DNA from: Ectocarpus siliculosus
Lineage: Eukaryota; Sar; Phaeophyceae; Ectocarpales; Ectocarpaceae
Length of the DNA: 64,000 nucleotides
Reading direction: 5' to 3'
Assembly (NCBI GenBank): GCA_000310025.1
Contig: FN649736.1
Location: 4,525,740-4,589,739, forward strand
Notes under the pieces: model-generated
The model's database searches: none
The model's input: the letters and a program-made list of their open reading frames with translations, nothing else
What the model was told of the DNA's origin: nothing
Translations under genes and position numbers: made by a program
In this document: one piece after another, positions 15,701 through 28,862 of the stretch
Position numbering within the stretch: position 1 is the stretch's first letter
Layout of the letters: each line of letters starts with the position of its first letter

Positions 15701-18700
15701 CCATGGAATTACGATCTTCAAGAAGTTCACTCATTCATTCTCGCCGATGACTTTCATAGGCACGCTTTCGGTGTCCCATGTTGCCGCGTGTAGCCGGGTC
15801 CCACTCCTTCCAAACATGCTGTTTCACTGTCGTAGCCCTACGTGAGAATTTCACTCCTTTCTGCTTGTCCATGACATTCATATCGAGGGCTATATGTGCC
15901 AGAAGTCCCGATCTGAATCGAGTCCCAACTCTGACCCGTATATTCCCCTTGTTTGATCGAATCAGAGGCATCACAGTGCAGGGCGTCATGCGCGATATAT
16001 GTTTCACTGTCAGCTTCGAGGAGGGTCGTTCGTCGAGAAAACCCTATGTATCTGAAACAAGGTTCTGAGTTTTCGGTAGTACGACACGGTGATCGCGTTA
16101 GCAGTAAAAGTTCTTCAACACCTGCAATATCCAAAAACACGTGGTCCCATGTCGTTCAAGAAATAGAACTTCACGGAAACACGGTATTCACGAAGTTCAC
16201 TCATACTTCTTGACGATGACATCCATAGGCAAGGCTTTCCGTGTCGCAAGTAGGGGTGTCAAACTGAGTTCCGACGTCTCCGAAATATTCTATTCATAGA
16301 CAAGGCTATAGTTGTCCCAAGTTGCGGTGTCAAACTGAGTCCCGACTTTTTCAAAACATGCTGTTTCACTGTCGTATTCCGACGTGAGAATTCACTCCTT
16401 CCTTCTTGTCGCTGACATTTGTATTGAGAGCTGGCTGTGCCCGAAGTCCCGGAGTCACACGTGCACCTCTCTTGGTTGATCGAATCAGAGGCATAACATC
16501 GCAGGGCGTCATTACGCAAAACATATATGGTTCACTACTGTCATCGTCGAGGAGGCTTCCTCGTCGAGGGAACCGATGTGCATCTGAAGCCAAAACTCTG
16601 CCTTTTTCAGCACTTCAGTAGCACGACACCCTTGAATAACGGGATGTGAAAATACTGCGAAAGCAACACGATAATCCCAGGTAAAATGGCGCCATGTCGG
16701 TGAAGTACTGGGACTACTACAAGCAAATGGACCGGAACAATTTCAATCCTTCCGTCCATGAAATTCGCAGCAGATTCGGCGGTATTCGGGGAAGTAGTCT
16801 ACACGAACTCTGACAAGCGCCCTTCCCCAATCGCCTTTCTCCCAAACCTATGCACCGTTCGAAGCAGTGCCCGATCCGCACGTTCTTGCTGACTTTGCTC
16901 CGCTGCTGCGGCGTTTCCATCGCTGATGCCCTCCGGCGCACTCGGCAAAGGATACTTGGCTTTCCATCCCCCACCCTCCTTTTACGCTTTGCTCGTGGAA
17001 ACTGAGGGTTGAGCGCTTCCTCCAACCCCTTGGGTAAGTGAGTCTAACCCCTTGCCGCCCGTACGCCCACCTCCTACAGATAGTCCACCCCTGTCCGCCT
17101 CTTTTGAACATGTGCCCCCCGCCGTGGGCATTCCACCTTCGTCACCCGTCTTCCCAACCCCACCGTATCCCTTTTTTACTTCCATTTGTTCGCCATTCCC
17201 CCTATATTTCTCCCCTCCACCTGCGCCCTCGTTCTCGGGCGTCGTAAGGCCGTCTTGAGAAAGGCAACATGTTGGTGTACATGAATAGCGGCAACCACGT
17301 GTTGGGTTTGGCTGAATGACGGCTTGTGTCACTGCCGGGGGTCTGGGAACACAGCTCGATTAGTTTCGTGCCTATTGGAGTTTTTTTGGAACGTTTCGCA
17401 CGGTGTCGTAAACAAGCTTGTTTTCGACACCGCCGAGATGGTGCCATGGCATCACTTTGGGCCATATCTCGGCATCCACCAGTCACCATGGGGCGAACGA
17501 GGTGTACATGTTCTCCAGATATCACTGCTGCTTGCTGTGTGCTGGTAGATTGTAATGATGACTACTAGAAGTAGTTCTGTGGTGGATCAACCACCCGGTC
17601 AATCGGTTCAAAAGTGCACACTCTGTGTTGTTTTCGTACACTAGAAGGAGGACACATTTATTCTGGTGGCCGTTTGCGGTCCATGGAGACCTTTATCCTT
17701 TCGTGGTGCAGTCGGGAGCCCCCCACACCTGCGGGGTCTCCCACACCTTCTACAGTTTTGCTAAAAGGCCCATGAGACACTCACGGGCAGCCCATGTGTG
17801 ACCCATGGGCCACCCATGGGCACTTTGTTGCCCATGGTTGACCCATGGCTGACCCATGGGCATGCATGCCCATGGGTAGCCCATGGGCTGGGCGGCCCAT
17901 AGGCAACCCATGGGAAGCCCATGGGCGGCCAATACAGCGCTTCAACCGGAACCAGTGTACTCCTAAACAATACACTATGTGCTTTGGAACGGGCATGATA
18001 GCGGCAAATAACCCTAAAACCCTAACGCTAACCCTACCCCTAACCCCAAGCCCACACGATGCGTGCTAGGTTGGTTGGCGTTGGTGGCGAATGTCTAGGT
18101 TGATGTGCAGGTAGCTAAGTTCTAGGTTGATATGCGGGTGGCGAAGTTCTAGGATGAAGTGCCCATGGTGGGCACTTCATGGGCACTTCATGGGCCGTCC
18201 ATGGACTGCCCATGGGTGATGAGGTGCTCATGGGCCACCCATGGGCCACCCATGGGTGTCCCATGCGCGGTTTAGCACAACTGTCAGTCGTGTGGGAGGT
18301 TGCACCTGCGGCGCACACCAAGCATCGCTCCGCCCACTACCCACATCGCTGATTCTATATTCTCAAGATATGTAGATAGATGTCGTCCAGCATGTGGGAC
18401 GGGTTTCCGGGGGAGGTCAAGCACATTCAATAGGCTGCAGACGTATGCCGGGAAGGTTATACAATTTAAAGGAACTCCACCAACCATCACGGTTCAAAAT
18501 CAAAAACGGAGAAAGATGTTGTCTCTTCCATCTTTCCTTGTTTCACTTCACATCGATGGACTCTCATATCCAGACTTGAATAATCCTTTCGTCACCAACG
18601 TGACCAACTCCCATCGTACTCGACTCCAGACAGACATACCGTCCCTGGGGGAAAATGGAAAGAGCTTCAGACGAGGCCGCGGCAACCCCCGGGTTGTTAT

Positions 18701-22322: not shown

Positions 22323-25300
22323 CTACTTCCTCCACGTGTTCGGCGTCGGGCGCCTGTGGGACTTGAATTTCTTGTAGATCTCCTTGCCCGTGGGTCCAAG
22401 TGCACGTGCCTTCAGGTACACGAGGGCATGCGTGTAAGCCTTCTTGCAGTAAGCCTGGACTACCGCAATGGCCTGTCTATCCTTCTCCGGTCTAAAGCTC
22501 AACGGCACGTTTTTGCGCAAGCATTCCATCGAATATGTGCAGTTCTGGCGCGTCCAGTCCTTCGCACGGCCCCAAACGAGCTCGATGGGGTTGCACTCGC
22601 AGTGGTACTTGGGGAGCATCACGCAGACTCCCCCGTGCCGCCGCATCAACAGCACCAGACTAGAGTCAACTTCCTTGAAGTCTCGCTGCTCTCCCAGAAC
22701 ATGCTCCATGCTCATGCTGAGGTCCTTCTTCTCGCCCGTCCCCCCCAACTTCGACATGCCCTTCTTCAGCAACCCCCTCTCGAACAAGATCTGCCGCATC
22801 CCCTTCAGCTTCCCGACATACTCCGACGGTCGGAGGTGCTCGGCGTAGAAGGGGGGGTCGTCCCCCCTTTGGAAAACCAAGTGCTGTGTCGTGCCAGCTT
22901 TGAGGAGTGGCGTATCTTCCAGAATCGTCACGGCATCCATCGCCGCAAGCTCTTCTCCCTTTCTCACTCCACCGAAACCCACGTTCATCCCGCTCACCCT
23001 TGGCGCGCCGACCTCTAGGCAGTCATGGCAGGACGACCAGTCGAACAGGCACACAGGCTTGTGGTTGGGGTAGAGGACGGCCACCACATCCAGGACGTCG
23101 TTCGTGTGGTCCAGCATTTTCAGACCGGTCCAGTAGCCCTCCTTGTTCTTGCCGTACTCGAAGAGATGGAAGGACCAATAGTTGCCGTCGTCGTCGACAT
23201 GCAGCATGTCGATTGGCCGGTACTTCTCTGGTTTGATGTTCTCCCCTCGTCTAGCTGCAGCGGCCGACTCACGGCAACGTTTCTTCCGGTTGCTCTCGGC
23301 CTCAGCTACCTGGCTCGGCGACGCCGAAAAGAAGCCAACGTTGTGGATGATCGTTCCTGACACCATGATGCCCTGGCCGGGTGACTTCTTTATTACCACA
23401 CGCTGGTCTTTCCTGAACCACGCCCACTTCTGGTCGTCGTTGGCTGCCGAAGAAAGAAGAAGAAAACAGGGGCGGCCAAAAAAAAAAGAATCAGAGAGTG
23501 CAACAAAAACGTTCAGTACTCTGCTGTAATGTACAGTACTCCTACACAGTACTGCTGTATGTGCGAGACCACTGCACACAACCCAACCTTGTCGAAGTAT
23601 TTTTGCAACTTTAACTTCACGTGGTGGACGACAATTTTTGCATTGCTCTACAATATTTTTATGTTTTGACTTGACTTCCCACTAACCTCGGAAGATGCTC
23701 TCGTCCTGGTAGAGAAGCAAGGCCTTCTTCCCGTCCGGGTACGTTTTCTTGCTCTGTACTTTAGCTTGCAGGTCAGGCGACAGGTCCGCCAACGCCGATT
23801 GTAGATCGTCGACACTCACCCAGACACCGTCACCTTCCTGCATGCGGTCGGCCTCCGGCACTTCGTTCACATCAATGCCCCAGGCCTCGGCTTCCTCGTT
23901 CGGCACCGGAATCCACACGTCCATGCGGTCGCGAGCGTCGAACAGTTGCGGCAGAAAGTCGTTGTTCCGGTACTTGAGGGTCTCCGGGTCGTCGTGGCCG
24001 TCGAAGTAGAGACCCTTTTTGGCACCGTGGTACTCGCACCCTAGCTTCTTCAGCCATGCCGTTGCTGTAGACAGGGAGATGAAACGCTTCCCGGGAACGG
24101 GGGGCTCGCCATCTTTCTCTGTTGGTTCTTCCCGCCGCACTCTCAAGCCGTCGAAAGGGTCGAAGTCCTCCGTCTCCAGCGCCTCCAGCTTGGGCATGAT
24201 GGTCTTGTTGATCCACTTGCGGAAATCTTCTGCCGTCTTGTTGGCTTCACCGCCTCAGTATGCCGCAGTTGTCCAGCATCCACTGCTTCACCAGCTTTTG
24301 GATGCCTTCGTCGAGCTCCAGGAGAAAGGTCCGCTGGAAGCGACCTTTTTCTGGCGGCTTGATTTTGCCGCGTGCTAGAAAACCATGCTCCCAGTCGTTT
24401 ACGGTTCCAATGCTTCGTCTGCCCACTCGTGCGGCAGCTGCTAGCGCATCGGTGCGGTTGACCCCGTCTTGCTGGAGAAGGTACAGATGGAGCAACGTCA
24501 TGGCCTGTTGAACCACGTGGGCCAGCTGGTAGTTGGACAGGGCAGCCCCCGGTGCGCTTGCCTCGTCCTGTGGAGAATGCCGGAGGGAGAGAGCGAGGGT
24601 GTGGGGACGGGGGGGTCAAACAACTGTTGTCGATGAAATGAACGTTACAGTATTGCTTTCGGATGTGCACTGCACAGCAGAGGCGCCCATGGTGCTGGGC
24701 GGACGCAGCAGCAACTTAACAGCAGTGTTTTACAGCAGTATACTTATTCGAGTGGTGACACTGTACACAGCAGTACAGTGGTTAAAGGAGAAAGTAGTTT
24801 GCGGCAGTACATTACTGCTGTACAGCAGTTCTTTACACACTCAAAAAAAACACTCACATCTTCCAGTGCCGCTGCCGCACTGATGGCCTTCTGCGCATCC
24901 CTCAACACGGTATCAAAATACTCGATGCTGTCCGCGCGAAATTCATCCGCCGCCGCCTCAACCGCCCGTGCTCTGAGATCTGCCTCGCGAGCACGCTTGA
25001 TCTTTTTTCTAGCCTGCGATGTGTTGTACGTGCCCTTGTTCATGTACCTCTTCATCGCCTCATCGGCCATCTCAGGCTCAGTTGCCTTCCACGCCCGCAA
25101 CAATTCTGCCAGCGTCCCAGCTTGAAGTTCGAGTGCGCCTGGAAAGGCTTTGACGAGCTCCTCGCGCAGCATGGTAGCTCTTTCTCGCCGGGCCCTCTTT
25201 CCTAGGCTTCCTTTCTTCCTCCCGGCGCCCTCTCTGGCGCCGCCGCACCCTTCTCGCAACCTTTCGGCGCCTCCAACACCAGGTTCTTGAAGAGAACCAG

Positions 25301-25643
25301 GTGCGGGAGCTGCAAGTCTGACACCCGTTGTAACCCGGGAGGGTGGTTGCTGGATCGCTTCATGCTGGATGGTCTTTGCTGCAAGGTCTAAACCATGTTT
25401 GGCGCTGTGATGGTTCTGCATGCTTGAGACTCGGCGGGCTCTGTCTCTGCCACGTGCACTCTTCGTGGTGAACGTCCGGCTGTGCCACTGAAGTAACGGC
25501 TGGCCGGCCTGGCTGCTGTGTCTTGCTTTCAGACCAATGCGGTACTTTCGTGGAGCCCCTCTGTGCACCTCGAGTTCTCCGAGCTCGTACTCAGCAGGCA
25601 GAGTTCCCTTCACATGCAGCAGCGCATCTGTATCGGGGTCCAT
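22323..25643 (-). pseudogene. DDE transposase, IS630/Tc1-mariner-like, three exons, one frameshift
   Basis: Cut-and-paste transposase. Exon 1 (to a GTGAGT donor near 24860) has a basic AT-hook-like GRKKGSLGKRARR and a charged helix. Exon 2 (acceptor near 24570, donor at 23686) carries a helix-turn-helix-like region (NRTDALAAAARVGRRSIG) and ends at YQDESIF, the first catalytic Asp. Exon 3 (from 23443) continues ANDDQKWAWF, then LFDWSSCHD (second Asp) and CNPIELVWGRAK (catalytic Glu). It stops at 22323-22325. Near 24240 the frame shifts: one frame ends at a TGA while the next opens with ANKTAEDFRKW. The start ATG at 25643 is a choice; an ATG at the MLREEL motif is also possible. Family assignment rests on the DDE spacing and motifs. 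Confidence 0.75.
23510..23560. repeat. CAGTACTGCTGT words in transposase intron 2
   Basis: Three close copies of CAGTACT followed by CTGCTGT or similar. The same words fill intron 1 (24640-24840). They may be binding or subterminal repeats of the element. Confidence 0.5.
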
Positions 25644-26303
25644 GGTCCCGCCCAAGATCTGTGGCAAAAGCGTACCCTGCACGCCCTGAGAAATTTGAAA
25701 TTTTCCTCTGCTATGCAGACGCTCGGAGGTTCCAACCAAACGTTTTTAGAACCCATTTTTTGCGGGGATTCCAAAAATGGAACTTTTTTTTGCGGCAAAA
25801 AAAGTCTTCGTCGTCGATTGCGCGTTTTTCCTATTTCTCGCCGATTCTATGAAAACGGCCAACCCAGCGTAGCTCGTGCCCATCTAATTTGCCGCAGCCA
25901 AAAGTGTGTTCATTCGAAAGCTCTCGTTCATAGCTTTCACATGATATATAGTTTGCTGTGTGAATCGTCTGCATAGTGGAGATATTAATCAATTGTGCCT
26001 GGGCTGGGGGCCGGAAAAATACCATGCTTGGAATTTTTTGCTCTGGTTCACTTTTGCCTCCACAACCCGAGAATCCCACTGCTGTATCTCGACCTACAAG
26101 ACTCCAATCAACAAACCAGCACTGGCAGAAGTGCGTGGAAGATGCTGTGACAGCACAACTAAGTCGACACTCGTACGACTTCTATGTACAGTCGGCGTCT
26201 GGTCCATACTGCCGTAGAAATACAAAAATCGAGCCATTTTCTTTTTTCCATACTAATAACAAGAAATGTATCACGTCACGACGACCATCCTGTGAGTATA
26301 TAG
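25644..26303. other. Stretch between transposase and element B
   Basis: No coding signal. 26261-26302 (AAGAAATGTATCACGTCACG and following) is about 90% identical to 34483-34525, so it is part of a dispersed repeat that abuts element B. Confidence 0.4.
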
Positions 26304-26960
26304 ATAACATGATCATGACCCGATCATGACTCGGTTATGACATGACTCGGTCATGATCGGGTCATGATCCAGTCATCGAGATGGAGTCATTGATCGAGGT
26401 CATGTTTCGGTCACGGCCCTACATAGGTCAGGACAAACCCACCGAGTCATAGCCAGTTCATGACTCGGTCAGGACTAACGCAATCCTGGGGCTCCTACGC
26501 AACAGATTATTATCTGGTTTGGCATGGACATTAAACCGGCTAAAAACCTTGCACTAACCCCAACCCTAACCCCAAACCCACACGAAAGGTGGTGGGTTGA
26601 CGCTGGGTGGATAAGCTCTAGGTGGGGGTGCCGCCATCATCGGTGCTACTGCAGGCTGGCGTTGATTCAATCAATCTAGACAGGCCATCGGGTCATGGTT
26701 GAGTCACGATGGGGTGATGACAAGATCATTTCTCGGTCATGGTGCATTCACTGTGACCCAGTCATGACACAATGACCACTCGGTATGATCCAGCAGTCTG
26801 GCCGAACATTCCCCCGAAAGTGAAACAACGAACTAAGTCATGGCCGAGCCATGACTCGGTCCATGATCCGACCATGCTCCGGTCGGTGAGAGCCGAGTCA
26901 GGATTATGACCAAGTCATGACCGGGTCATGATCGGGTCACAGTCATGACCCGATCATGAT
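26304..26960. repeat. GTCATGAC palindrome array around a telomere-like core (element B)
   Basis: The left arm (26304-26480) and right arm (26685-26960) are built of TCATGACC, GGTCATGA, GATCATGAC and ACTCGGTCATG words, again centred on CATG. The middle (26490-26627) aligns with that of element A: CTCCTA, TTTGG, GGCATG, telomere-like CTAACCCC, then a 20-mer at 26566-26585 differing by one base from element A, and GTTGACGCTGGGTGG. The arms share no word with element A beyond CATG. Confidence 0.8.
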
Positions 26961-26996
26961 TACGATCAACGAGCTAACCAAGAAATGTCACTCATT

Positions 26997-27123
26997 GAGA
27001 GCTTCAAGGCTTTCTGTTGAACTTTGCATCGTGAGCTTTTGACCGCAATGTACAGAGCCTGAGAGCTTCAAGGTATTCTGTTGAGCGTTGCATCTTCATC
27101 TTTTGACCACAATGTACAGAACC
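26997..27123 (+). repeat. Tandem repeat, 2 x 64 bp
   Basis: Both units begin GAGAGCTTCAAGG and end near AATGTACAGA. They directly follow element B. Confidence 0.85.
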
Positions 27124-27239
27124 AAACAAGCGGATTCTTCGTACCTTGATTTGGGTCTCCGGTCTCCCCCTCCCTCAGAGAACAGTCCAAGGGAGAAAGA
27201 GGGCGGGGAAGACGACGCTGCTTCTCCTTAGACGCGCAA

Positions 27240-28862
27240 AAAATATACGATACAGTATGGAGAAATGGGCGGTGGAAACAATTGTCCATTTAGTCTATGG
27301 GATAAAGGGGAAGGGGAAATGTGGAGAGCTGATGAAGATGACAGTACGAAAAGTGCTGTCATGATGTAGACTAATGATAGACGGAGAACTGGCAAACATT
27401 TTCAACGCTGAACAGGGGGTGCCACAAGGTTGCATCTTGTCCCCAACATTGTTCCAGGTGTTCATCAACGATCTGTTGAAAGTTGTAGAGGCAGTCGGGA
27501 AGGAAGTAAAGGTAGGGGACACGGAAACAATGGTGTCGGGAATGCTGTTTGCGGATGATTTTGTTGGGATGTCTGACACCCCTGAGGGACTTAACTGCAG
27601 ATTGAGGCAGCGAAGGATTTTGCTTTACGTGGAGATTGTCTGCCAACGTTACGAACAATGCAGTCATCATGGCATGCAACGAGGACCGGAAGAACCTAGT
27701 AGAGTATAGATGGAAGTGGGAGTTCGAGGAGCTCGCAGTAGTGGATTAGTACACCTATGTCGGAGTAAAGATCGCAAAAGACTGCAGATGAAATGCACGC
27801 ATCATTTCCAAGGTTCCGGCAAAGGGCAAAGCACGAGCAGGGAAACTGCACCCAATACTCGCAAACCGGCACCTCAATACACGCATGGAATTGGCAGCTT
27901 TGAAGAGCGTAATCGTACCGTCGCTAGAGTACGCCGGAGAAGTATGGGAAGGAAATAAGAAGGTAGTCAAAGAGCTCGAGGCGGCGCAGATTGAAAGCAG
28001 CAAAAATCATTCTAGGACGCTCCAAGCGTACAACAAGTAATGCAGCCGTTACGGCAGAACTGGGGATCCAATCCGTACGATGGGGAAGAGACGCGAGGAA
28101 AGCTAAAATGGCAGTACCGCATGGAGGGTAAGGGAGAGGAAAGGTTGCCGAGACTAACTTGGGAGGCGAAGTGAGTAAATCGAGAAGGTTTTGTAGACAA
28201 CCCGTGGATGAAAGAATATGTAGATGACGTATTTAAGGAGTTCGAAATGGACGACGGTGATATACGGGAAACAGAAGTGGACTACATAGAGGGGTTCAAG
28301 GAGAAGATATACGTTGCTTTTGCCGAGAGAGAAAAACAGAATCTAACCAAAGAAACAAGGATCCGGAGGTCTACATGTTTACGAAGAAGGAATACGGTTC
28401 AAGGACTACCTACATGGAGATTGAATGCAGGGACAAAGCTGAAGATCAACTTTAGGGCGGGGGACATGGGCCTTCGAGAACGTAGACGAAGATTTTGGAA
28501 AAGGTAGACGATGAAGACAGATTCAAATGCGAATGCGGCTCCGAGTGCGAAAACCGGGTTAATGTGGTGGCGGGTGGTCTGTTGTAGTACAAAAATGAGA
28601 GGGAAGCGTACATGACGGAGCTGGGAAAAGTAAGAAGATACAGGGAGATGTTTAAGGCATGGAATGTCCAGGAGAAGACGGTGGTAGCCGTACTGGAGCA
28701 TAGGAAGTTTGGTTGATAAGGCCGGGAAGTGATATCGATAGGATAGATTTTAGTAGGGAACTGTTTTTGAGCCACCTTTGGCAAGTAGGAACGAACGATT
28801 GGCCATCGGTGATCGTCCCTGTGGGAACAATGCCCCGTCCTCTCGAGGACGCGTGGTCAAAG
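27240..28862 (+). pseudogene. Decayed LINE (non-LTR) reverse transcriptase
   Basis: Reverse transcriptase motifs appear in one frame: QGVPQGCILSPTLF and FINDLL, then the active-site box MLFADDFVGMSD. Downstream, in shifting frames, come YTYVGVKIAKDC, then IVPSLEYAGEVWEGN and a C-terminal Cys pair (FKCECGSE). Stops and frameshifts interrupt it every few hundred bases, so it is dead. The 5' half, including any endonuclease, is missing. The 3' end (28735-28890) has an inverted second copy at 38495-38650. Confidence 0.8.

Follow-up and report, generated by a model that had tools for sequence, protein, structure and literature searches.

What kind of element keeps its centre when its arms are built from another word? 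The window, the whole stretch of 64,000 nucleotides that was analysed (part of contig C11), contains two short elements, A and B, with similar cores, and a preliminary description had taken their unlike arms to mean that the arm word is amplified or rewritten within each element. No open reading frame of at least 150 aa overlaps element B in the window. We consider element B likely to be a MITE-like and Foldback-like inverted-repeat DNA transposon that is non-autonomous and, in this copy, decayed; it would have family-specific predicted transposase sites in its arms, a core derived from a further family, C, and a word that was fixed in the founder of its family.

A common core between different arms

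The B core (26490-26627) aligns with the A core (17958-18102) at 101 identical positions over 131 aligned bp, gaps apart, and the alignment score of 137 lies far above that of 500 shuffles (mean 37.6, maximum 62). The best 20-mer common to both cores has 19 of 20 positions identical, that is, the single mismatch reported before. The match is not due to the telomere-like CCCTAA run alone, because the parts on either side of the run are separately significant, with scores of 45 for the 5' part and 50 for the 3' part against a maximum of 35 in 1000 single-base shuffles each.

The arms of B do consist of a different self-complementary word, TCATGA instead of the CCCATGGG of A. TCATGA occurs 10 times in 26304-26960 (mean 0.76, maximum 4 in 2000 first-order Markov sequences), and CCCATGGG 10 times in 17750-18290 (mean 0.13, maximum 3). 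As a strict 8-mer, GTCATGAC is found only three times in B, and TCATGA is the better form of the B word. Counting each of the overlapping sites in one array, a three-word TCATGA array with 11-bp spacing and up to two mismatches has 207 sites genome-wide (reversed pattern, 11), and a three-word CCCATGGG array with up to one mismatch has 485 (reversed pattern, 0). The limits first given for element B, 26304-26960, changed slightly at the left, where the copy now starts at about 26310 with its tip missing, and more at the right, where the terminal repeat extends to 26998 (Table 1).

Table 1. Coordinates of the element A and element B copies in the window and of their parts.
Feature	Position	Strand	Remark
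Element B, non-autonomous DNA transposon copy (likely reading), left tip missing	26310..26998	+	aligned to 846-bp consensus from consensus position 27; right end = terminal repeat
Element B left arm, TCATGA words often 11 bp apart	26310..26476	+	
Element B core, telomere-like C-rich run and GGTGCTAGGTTGGCG-type units, putatively C-derived; right limit approximate	26492..26664	+	consensus similarity to C
Element B right arm, TCATGA words and decayed forms	26680..26959	+	
Element B right terminal inverted repeat, reverse complement starts TCAATGAGTGACATT	26960..26998	+	
Element A, complete 569-bp copy	17734..18302	+	terminal repeats GGGTCTCCCACAC... and ...GTGTGGGAGGTTG
Element A left target-site duplication CACCTGCG	17726..17733	+	
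Element A right target-site duplication CACCTGCG	18303..18310	+	
Element A core, homologous to B and C cores	17958..18102	+	sequence alignment
Element A left arm, CCCATGGG words often 11 bp apart	17791..17925	+	
Element A right arm, CCCATGGG words	18163..18264	+	

Four families of dispersed elements

Searches were run over the 189-Mb genome, in which the EsV-1-7 domain has at least 150 matches (best 150 of 880 candidates scored) and for which 14 control genomes gave none. This points to a brown alga; proliferation of the domain has been described for brown algae (PMC12477816). Element B as query gave 54 matches in the genome (best 40 of 163 candidates scored) and element A 107 (best 40 of 410). 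We fetched 60 loci at core matches, of which one (L056) had no detectable core and was dropped, 10 at TCATGA arrays, 14 of family D and 20 at A/D tips. Four families, A to D, could be told apart, with copies spread over many contigs. Family A is about 566 bp long, with the tips GGGTCTCCCACAC and CAATCTCCCACAC and the word CCCATGGG; family B is about 846 bp long, with the tips GGGGGCTTTGACATT and TCAATGAGTGACATT and the word TCATGA. Family C (about 578 bp, tips GAAAAATATTCGATGCACCC) has the core of A and B and no word array, and family D (about 1027 bp) has A-like tips, the word CTTCCATGGAAG and a separate telomere-like centre of its own. Consensus values come from 20 A, 15 D, 33 C and 11 B copies, which are mostly the best matches, so that the figures are biased toward well-kept copies. 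Loci L001 to L003 share flanks, as do L073 and L076, and neither group is independent.

Several loci are composite or unusual in other ways. An A and a B element adjoin within about 1.5 kb at L007/L042 (C10, around 2982400-2983950). At positions of about 1600-2200 of L070 (C11:544700-548000), a D element is bordered on both sides by a B-type arm with its flank, the two copies being in direct orientation, an arrangement that suggests a duplication or a nested insertion. By eye, short units at about 300-800 of L072 (C25:205800-207900) form a satellite-like run and resemble the right end of B. Finally, L093 (C18:71700-74620), chosen for its tip-like motifs, is a long inverted duplication with arms of about 1 kb, a short spacer and TACTTACA repeats near one end; this large palindrome looks unrelated to families A to D.

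Transposon ends and target-site duplications

Target-site duplications, which the preliminary description had suggested looking for at the outermost words, were found at the ends of A, C and D, with no clear excess for B. The comparison used the loci in which both ends could be placed, namely 20 of 29 for A, 17 of 35 for C and 8 of 16 for D. Duplications with at least seven of eight matches flank 11 of the 20 A copies (1.6% of 380 mismatched pairs) and five of the eight D copies (1.8% of 56), and 8 of the 17 C copies have at least eight of nine matches (0 of 272 mismatched pairs). Matching flanks connect L032 with L034 (A, both positive) and L083 with L091 (D, both negative); if each pair is counted once, A has 10 of 19 and D has 5 of 7. 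The duplication is 9 bp long in C and 8 bp, possibly 9 bp, in A and D: in A, 8 bp fits most copies with a repeat, and 9/9 matches are seen in 5 of 20 copies if the ends may shift. The A copy of the window is flanked by a perfect 8-bp duplication. The consensus ends of A, C and D pair as terminal inverted repeats, and those of B have TGACATTATTGGGTT in common. Since copies of A, C and D are dispersed and carry both terminal repeats and duplications, these families are non-autonomous inverted-repeat DNA transposons.

The tips connect some of the families. Among the four left and right comparisons between A and D tips, three score above all 1000 shuffles and the fourth has a p of 0.010. Weaker similarity is found between B and A tips (p 0.001 on both sides) and between B and one D tip (p 0.007), and by this weak resemblance of its tips B may be a distant relative of A and D.

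At nine B loci, the best matches between the flanks were not clearly above mismatched pairs. This would suit a reading in which B is no transposon of its own and spreads together with an adjoining reverse-transcriptase pseudogene, as part of a retroelement or by segmental duplication; the right flank is common to L001, L002 and L003, the left flank to L002 and L003, and L073 and L076 also have common flanks. The flanks of the other inspected B loci, however, look unrelated, and the tips GGGGGCTTTGACATT and TCAATGAGTGACATT recur there. Moreover, the sequence 3' of B as query gave 40 scored matches including itself (best 40 of 286 candidates), and 39 of these 40 do not extend back past position 218 of this query. 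We therefore regard spreading with the pseudogene as very unlikely and continue to treat B as a transposon. The sequence 3' of B, at 26999-27900 of the window, leads into what by eye resembles such a pseudogene, and it is common to L001-L003 behind B.

Arm words follow the family

Among the elements with word arrays, one word dominates in each. Around 19 B core instances CCCATGGG is absent, and around 29 A core instances TCATGA occurs once or not at all, except for two instances with three each, which are a single locus fetched twice and have a B neighbour. As the arm classes were assigned from word counts, the finding of one dominant word is partly definitional, whereas no such circularity attaches to the near absence of other words.

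If the word were repeatedly rewritten inside each element by conversion or amplification, arms should differ where other parts are common, and the arms of A, B and D indeed differ while the core (A, B and C) or the tips (A and D) are common. We compared this with a maximum-likelihood tree of 78 of the 87 core instances, from which eight cores with unclear arms and one duplicate (L042, a part of L007) had been left out. In this tree, whose bootstrap had not settled and whose root is arbitrary for want of an outgroup, family A forms a single clade (support 100/99) and 18 of the 19 B cores group together (89/85); the remaining one, which is the left core of L069, is placed among the 31 C cores. 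The tree requires three changes of arm type, compared with a mean of 36.2 after shuffling, and the arms were therefore not switched locus by locus. Furthermore, the arms of a family's copies, including the spacers, align copy by copy to one consensus, which speaks against rewriting element by element. Descent of all arms from one ancestral sequence, the outcome that the preliminary description had set against its own proposal, is thus what we see within families and not what we see between them. Rewriting of the word within each element is accordingly not borne out, and we consider it extremely improbable.

A core that may derive from family C

The consensus cores are similar over different lengths, with 86.8% identity over 136 bp between A and C, 87.8% over 229 bp between B and C and 90% over 131 bp between B and A. 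The B copy of the window matches C over 126 bp at 81.7% and A over 133 bp at 78.9%. The stretches in common with C differ between A and B, yet they overlap.

In four of the 19 B loci (L013, L018, L069 and L077), a match to the terminal repeat of C lies between the core and the B words; the match in L077 is weak (20 bp, E 0.003). L069 (C11:3472300-3475600) is a B element of 1.9 kb; it contains two oppositely oriented cores, and beside each lies a piece of a C end. C ends beside B cores are the expected outcome if C had inserted into a B ancestor and had then been trimmed, and the sequences suggest that the B core is what is left of a C element that had been nested in this way. A search for the C end at A cores in 31 loci found none apart from one 19-bp match in L110. 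Since C ends are missing at the A loci, the direct case for capture applies to B only, and for A we infer both the capture and its direction from the overlapping homology.

The order of events would then be as follows. A family C transposon, with its own terminal repeats and 9-bp duplications, would have inserted into the B ancestor, lost its ends by deletion and from then on propagated as part of B. Family A would have gained an overlapping piece of C independently. The word of each family would have been fixed in its founder, and later copies would have decayed by point mutation and deletion.

Alternatively, the core could be a separate mobile or functional unit, such as a telomere-like G-quadruplex module, that was repeatedly inserted into unrelated transposons and kept because it is helpful. 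The presence of the core in three families with different tips would agree with this, as would the telomere-like centre that D has of its own and the quadruplex-type motif found in 20 of 31 cores in C and 17 of 29 in A, against 20 of 325 control pieces. However, only 2 of 19 B cores contain the motif, and elements do without a core: two A copies with ends and words lack it (L094, 149 bp; L107, 79 bp, a boundary call), and L078 is a short B without it. The C ends inside B loci also suggest that the core arrived within a C element. We thus find an independent core unit unlikely and prefer descent from C.

Predicted role of the words

In A (121 intervals, 26 loci) and in B (58 intervals, 17 loci), words most frequently follow one another at 11 bp. 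In D the commonest spacing is 20-22 bp (65 intervals, 16 loci), so that 11-bp phasing is not universal. The words adjoin the tips, occupy both arms, are often one helical turn apart (A and B) and are specific to the family, which is why we predict a role in binding. According to the explanation we favour, the arms would be long end regions made of a CATG-centred palindromic word, repeated mostly every 11 bp and thus about once per helical turn. The words, of which the first lie directly inside the terminal tips, would be predicted sites at which a dimeric transposase binds in trans, each word (CCCATGGG in A, TCATGA in B, CTTCCATGGAAG in D) being read by the putative enzyme of its own family, and the core would lie outside the binding machinery.

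On balance, a trans-acting transposase that binds the words is the better supposition, and the Galileo transposons of Drosophila offer a precedent. Galileo has multiple transposase-binding sites in its long terminal inverted repeats; a THAP site lies within the family-specific part and more sites are found in the internal repeats (PMC3688188). Its subfamilies have tips of about 40-50 bp in common and subfamily-specific interiors. In D. buzzatii, the G protein binds weakly to K ends and not to N ends; it also binds D. ananassae ends, and cross-binding does not strictly follow the subfamily (PMC3688188). New Galileo subfamilies have been proposed to arise by exchange between copies (PMC3573991). 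For the A/D lineage, a tentative and rather doubtful extension would be that the palindromic sites of both arms, about 20 in all, were replaced as a whole array by another symmetric word, that the tips and the CCATGG centre were retained and that cross-mobilisation was thereby escaped, in which case the letters of the word would be a transposase binding code.

The word arrays could also be a by-product, with fold-back strand switching and slippage amplifying an arbitrary self-complementary word near the tip. The words are self-complementary and the two arms pair as inverted repeats, as this process would produce, some D spacers are nearly palindromic in the consensus, and A and D have common tips and different words. 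Conservation points both ways. In family A (20 copies), identity to the consensus is 0.870 in words, 0.797 in spacers and 0.924 in the core, and the modestly better preservation of the words, which counts against a by-product, could reflect either constraint or the difficulty of aligning a repetitive array. In family D (15 copies), the values are 0.895, 0.878 and 0.904, with no peak at the word centre; words hardly better kept than spacers give no sign of selection on them and suit a by-product. However, the recurrent spacing of 11 bp and of 20-22 bp fits binding sites better, as does the position of the first A and D word next to the tip, and CATG is kept in the words of A, B and D. A by-product is therefore conceivable but the weaker candidate, and binding sites remain our preferred reading.

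Searches for an autonomous partner gave no candidate among the inverted pairs of C ends (about 390-580 bp apart, from a pattern with 44 places), nor among the matches listed for the pattern of A/D tips (100 of 216 places) or for the word arrays (100 places per array). The 9-bp duplication of C agrees in length with MULEs, for which 9 bp is typical. In four of 45 MULE matches, 10 kb of each locus contained no arrays of the family words and none of the end motifs searched, including the C end, and in the one MULE locus whose tips were inspected these differ from those of the families. The Pfam KDZ profile was uninformative, matching nothing in the genome and nothing in the controls either. An 8-bp duplication has been described for Zisupton (PMC12730594).

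Young MULE elements of about 6 kb with terminal repeats of about 118 bp are present at L113-L116 as two pairs that are 99.8-99.9% identical, and the one at L113 stops about 3.6 kb short of the window. Within the window, open reading frames at 22323-24197 and 24744-25739 on the minus strand resemble, by eye, a broken transposase gene; Pfam gave no match to them at E 0.001.

Comparison with known systems

In the literature searched, repeat-library supplements aside, we saw no description of families of this kind in brown algae. The repeat study of Ectocarpus lists giant KDZ elements and 51 DNA families classed as unknown, and its main text, in the parts available, does not use the terms "palindrom", "subterminal" or "foldback"; families A to D may already be in the Ectocarpus repeat library, without a description of words and core. 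Two features are new as far as this literature goes, namely family-specific palindromic words over common tips and one centre in three families with different ends. The overall kind of element is already known. What the families add is an example of gene-less DNA transposons whose tips, subterminal words and centre vary independently within a single genome, so that the replacement of putative transposase-binding arrays without loss of mobility, and the way in which the internal sequence of one transposon settles in another family, can be tested in one organism. Repeat libraries based on core similarity may lump unrelated families of this sort.

Like MITEs, the elements are short, gene-less and dispersed and have terminal repeats and duplications. 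MITEs ordinarily have conserved ends and a variable centre, in contrast to the three families here, which have the same centre and different ends. A conserved centre with varying heads and tails is also known from the core domains of SINEs, but these are retroposons and the families here are DNA transposons. The modular non-autonomous elements of the ModuleOrganizer study (Foldback, AtREP21 and SIDER2) are, like ours, built from recombining modules, and family-specific palindromic words are not among the features described in the available part of that study.

The closest likeness is to Galileo, of the P superfamily, and Foldback in Drosophila, and the earlier view that no element class had been described in this way was too strong. 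Both have long, internally repetitive inverted ends and many copies without a working gene, as here, and the subfamilies of Galileo combine common tips with interiors of their own, just as A and D have common tips and different words. Unlike in Galileo, the families here are known without a transposase, and the duplications are 8 or 9 bp long, compared with 7 bp in Galileo. The repeat here is a short self-complementary word at a spacing of one or two helical turns, and the centre, again unlike that of Galileo, appears to come from another transposon family.
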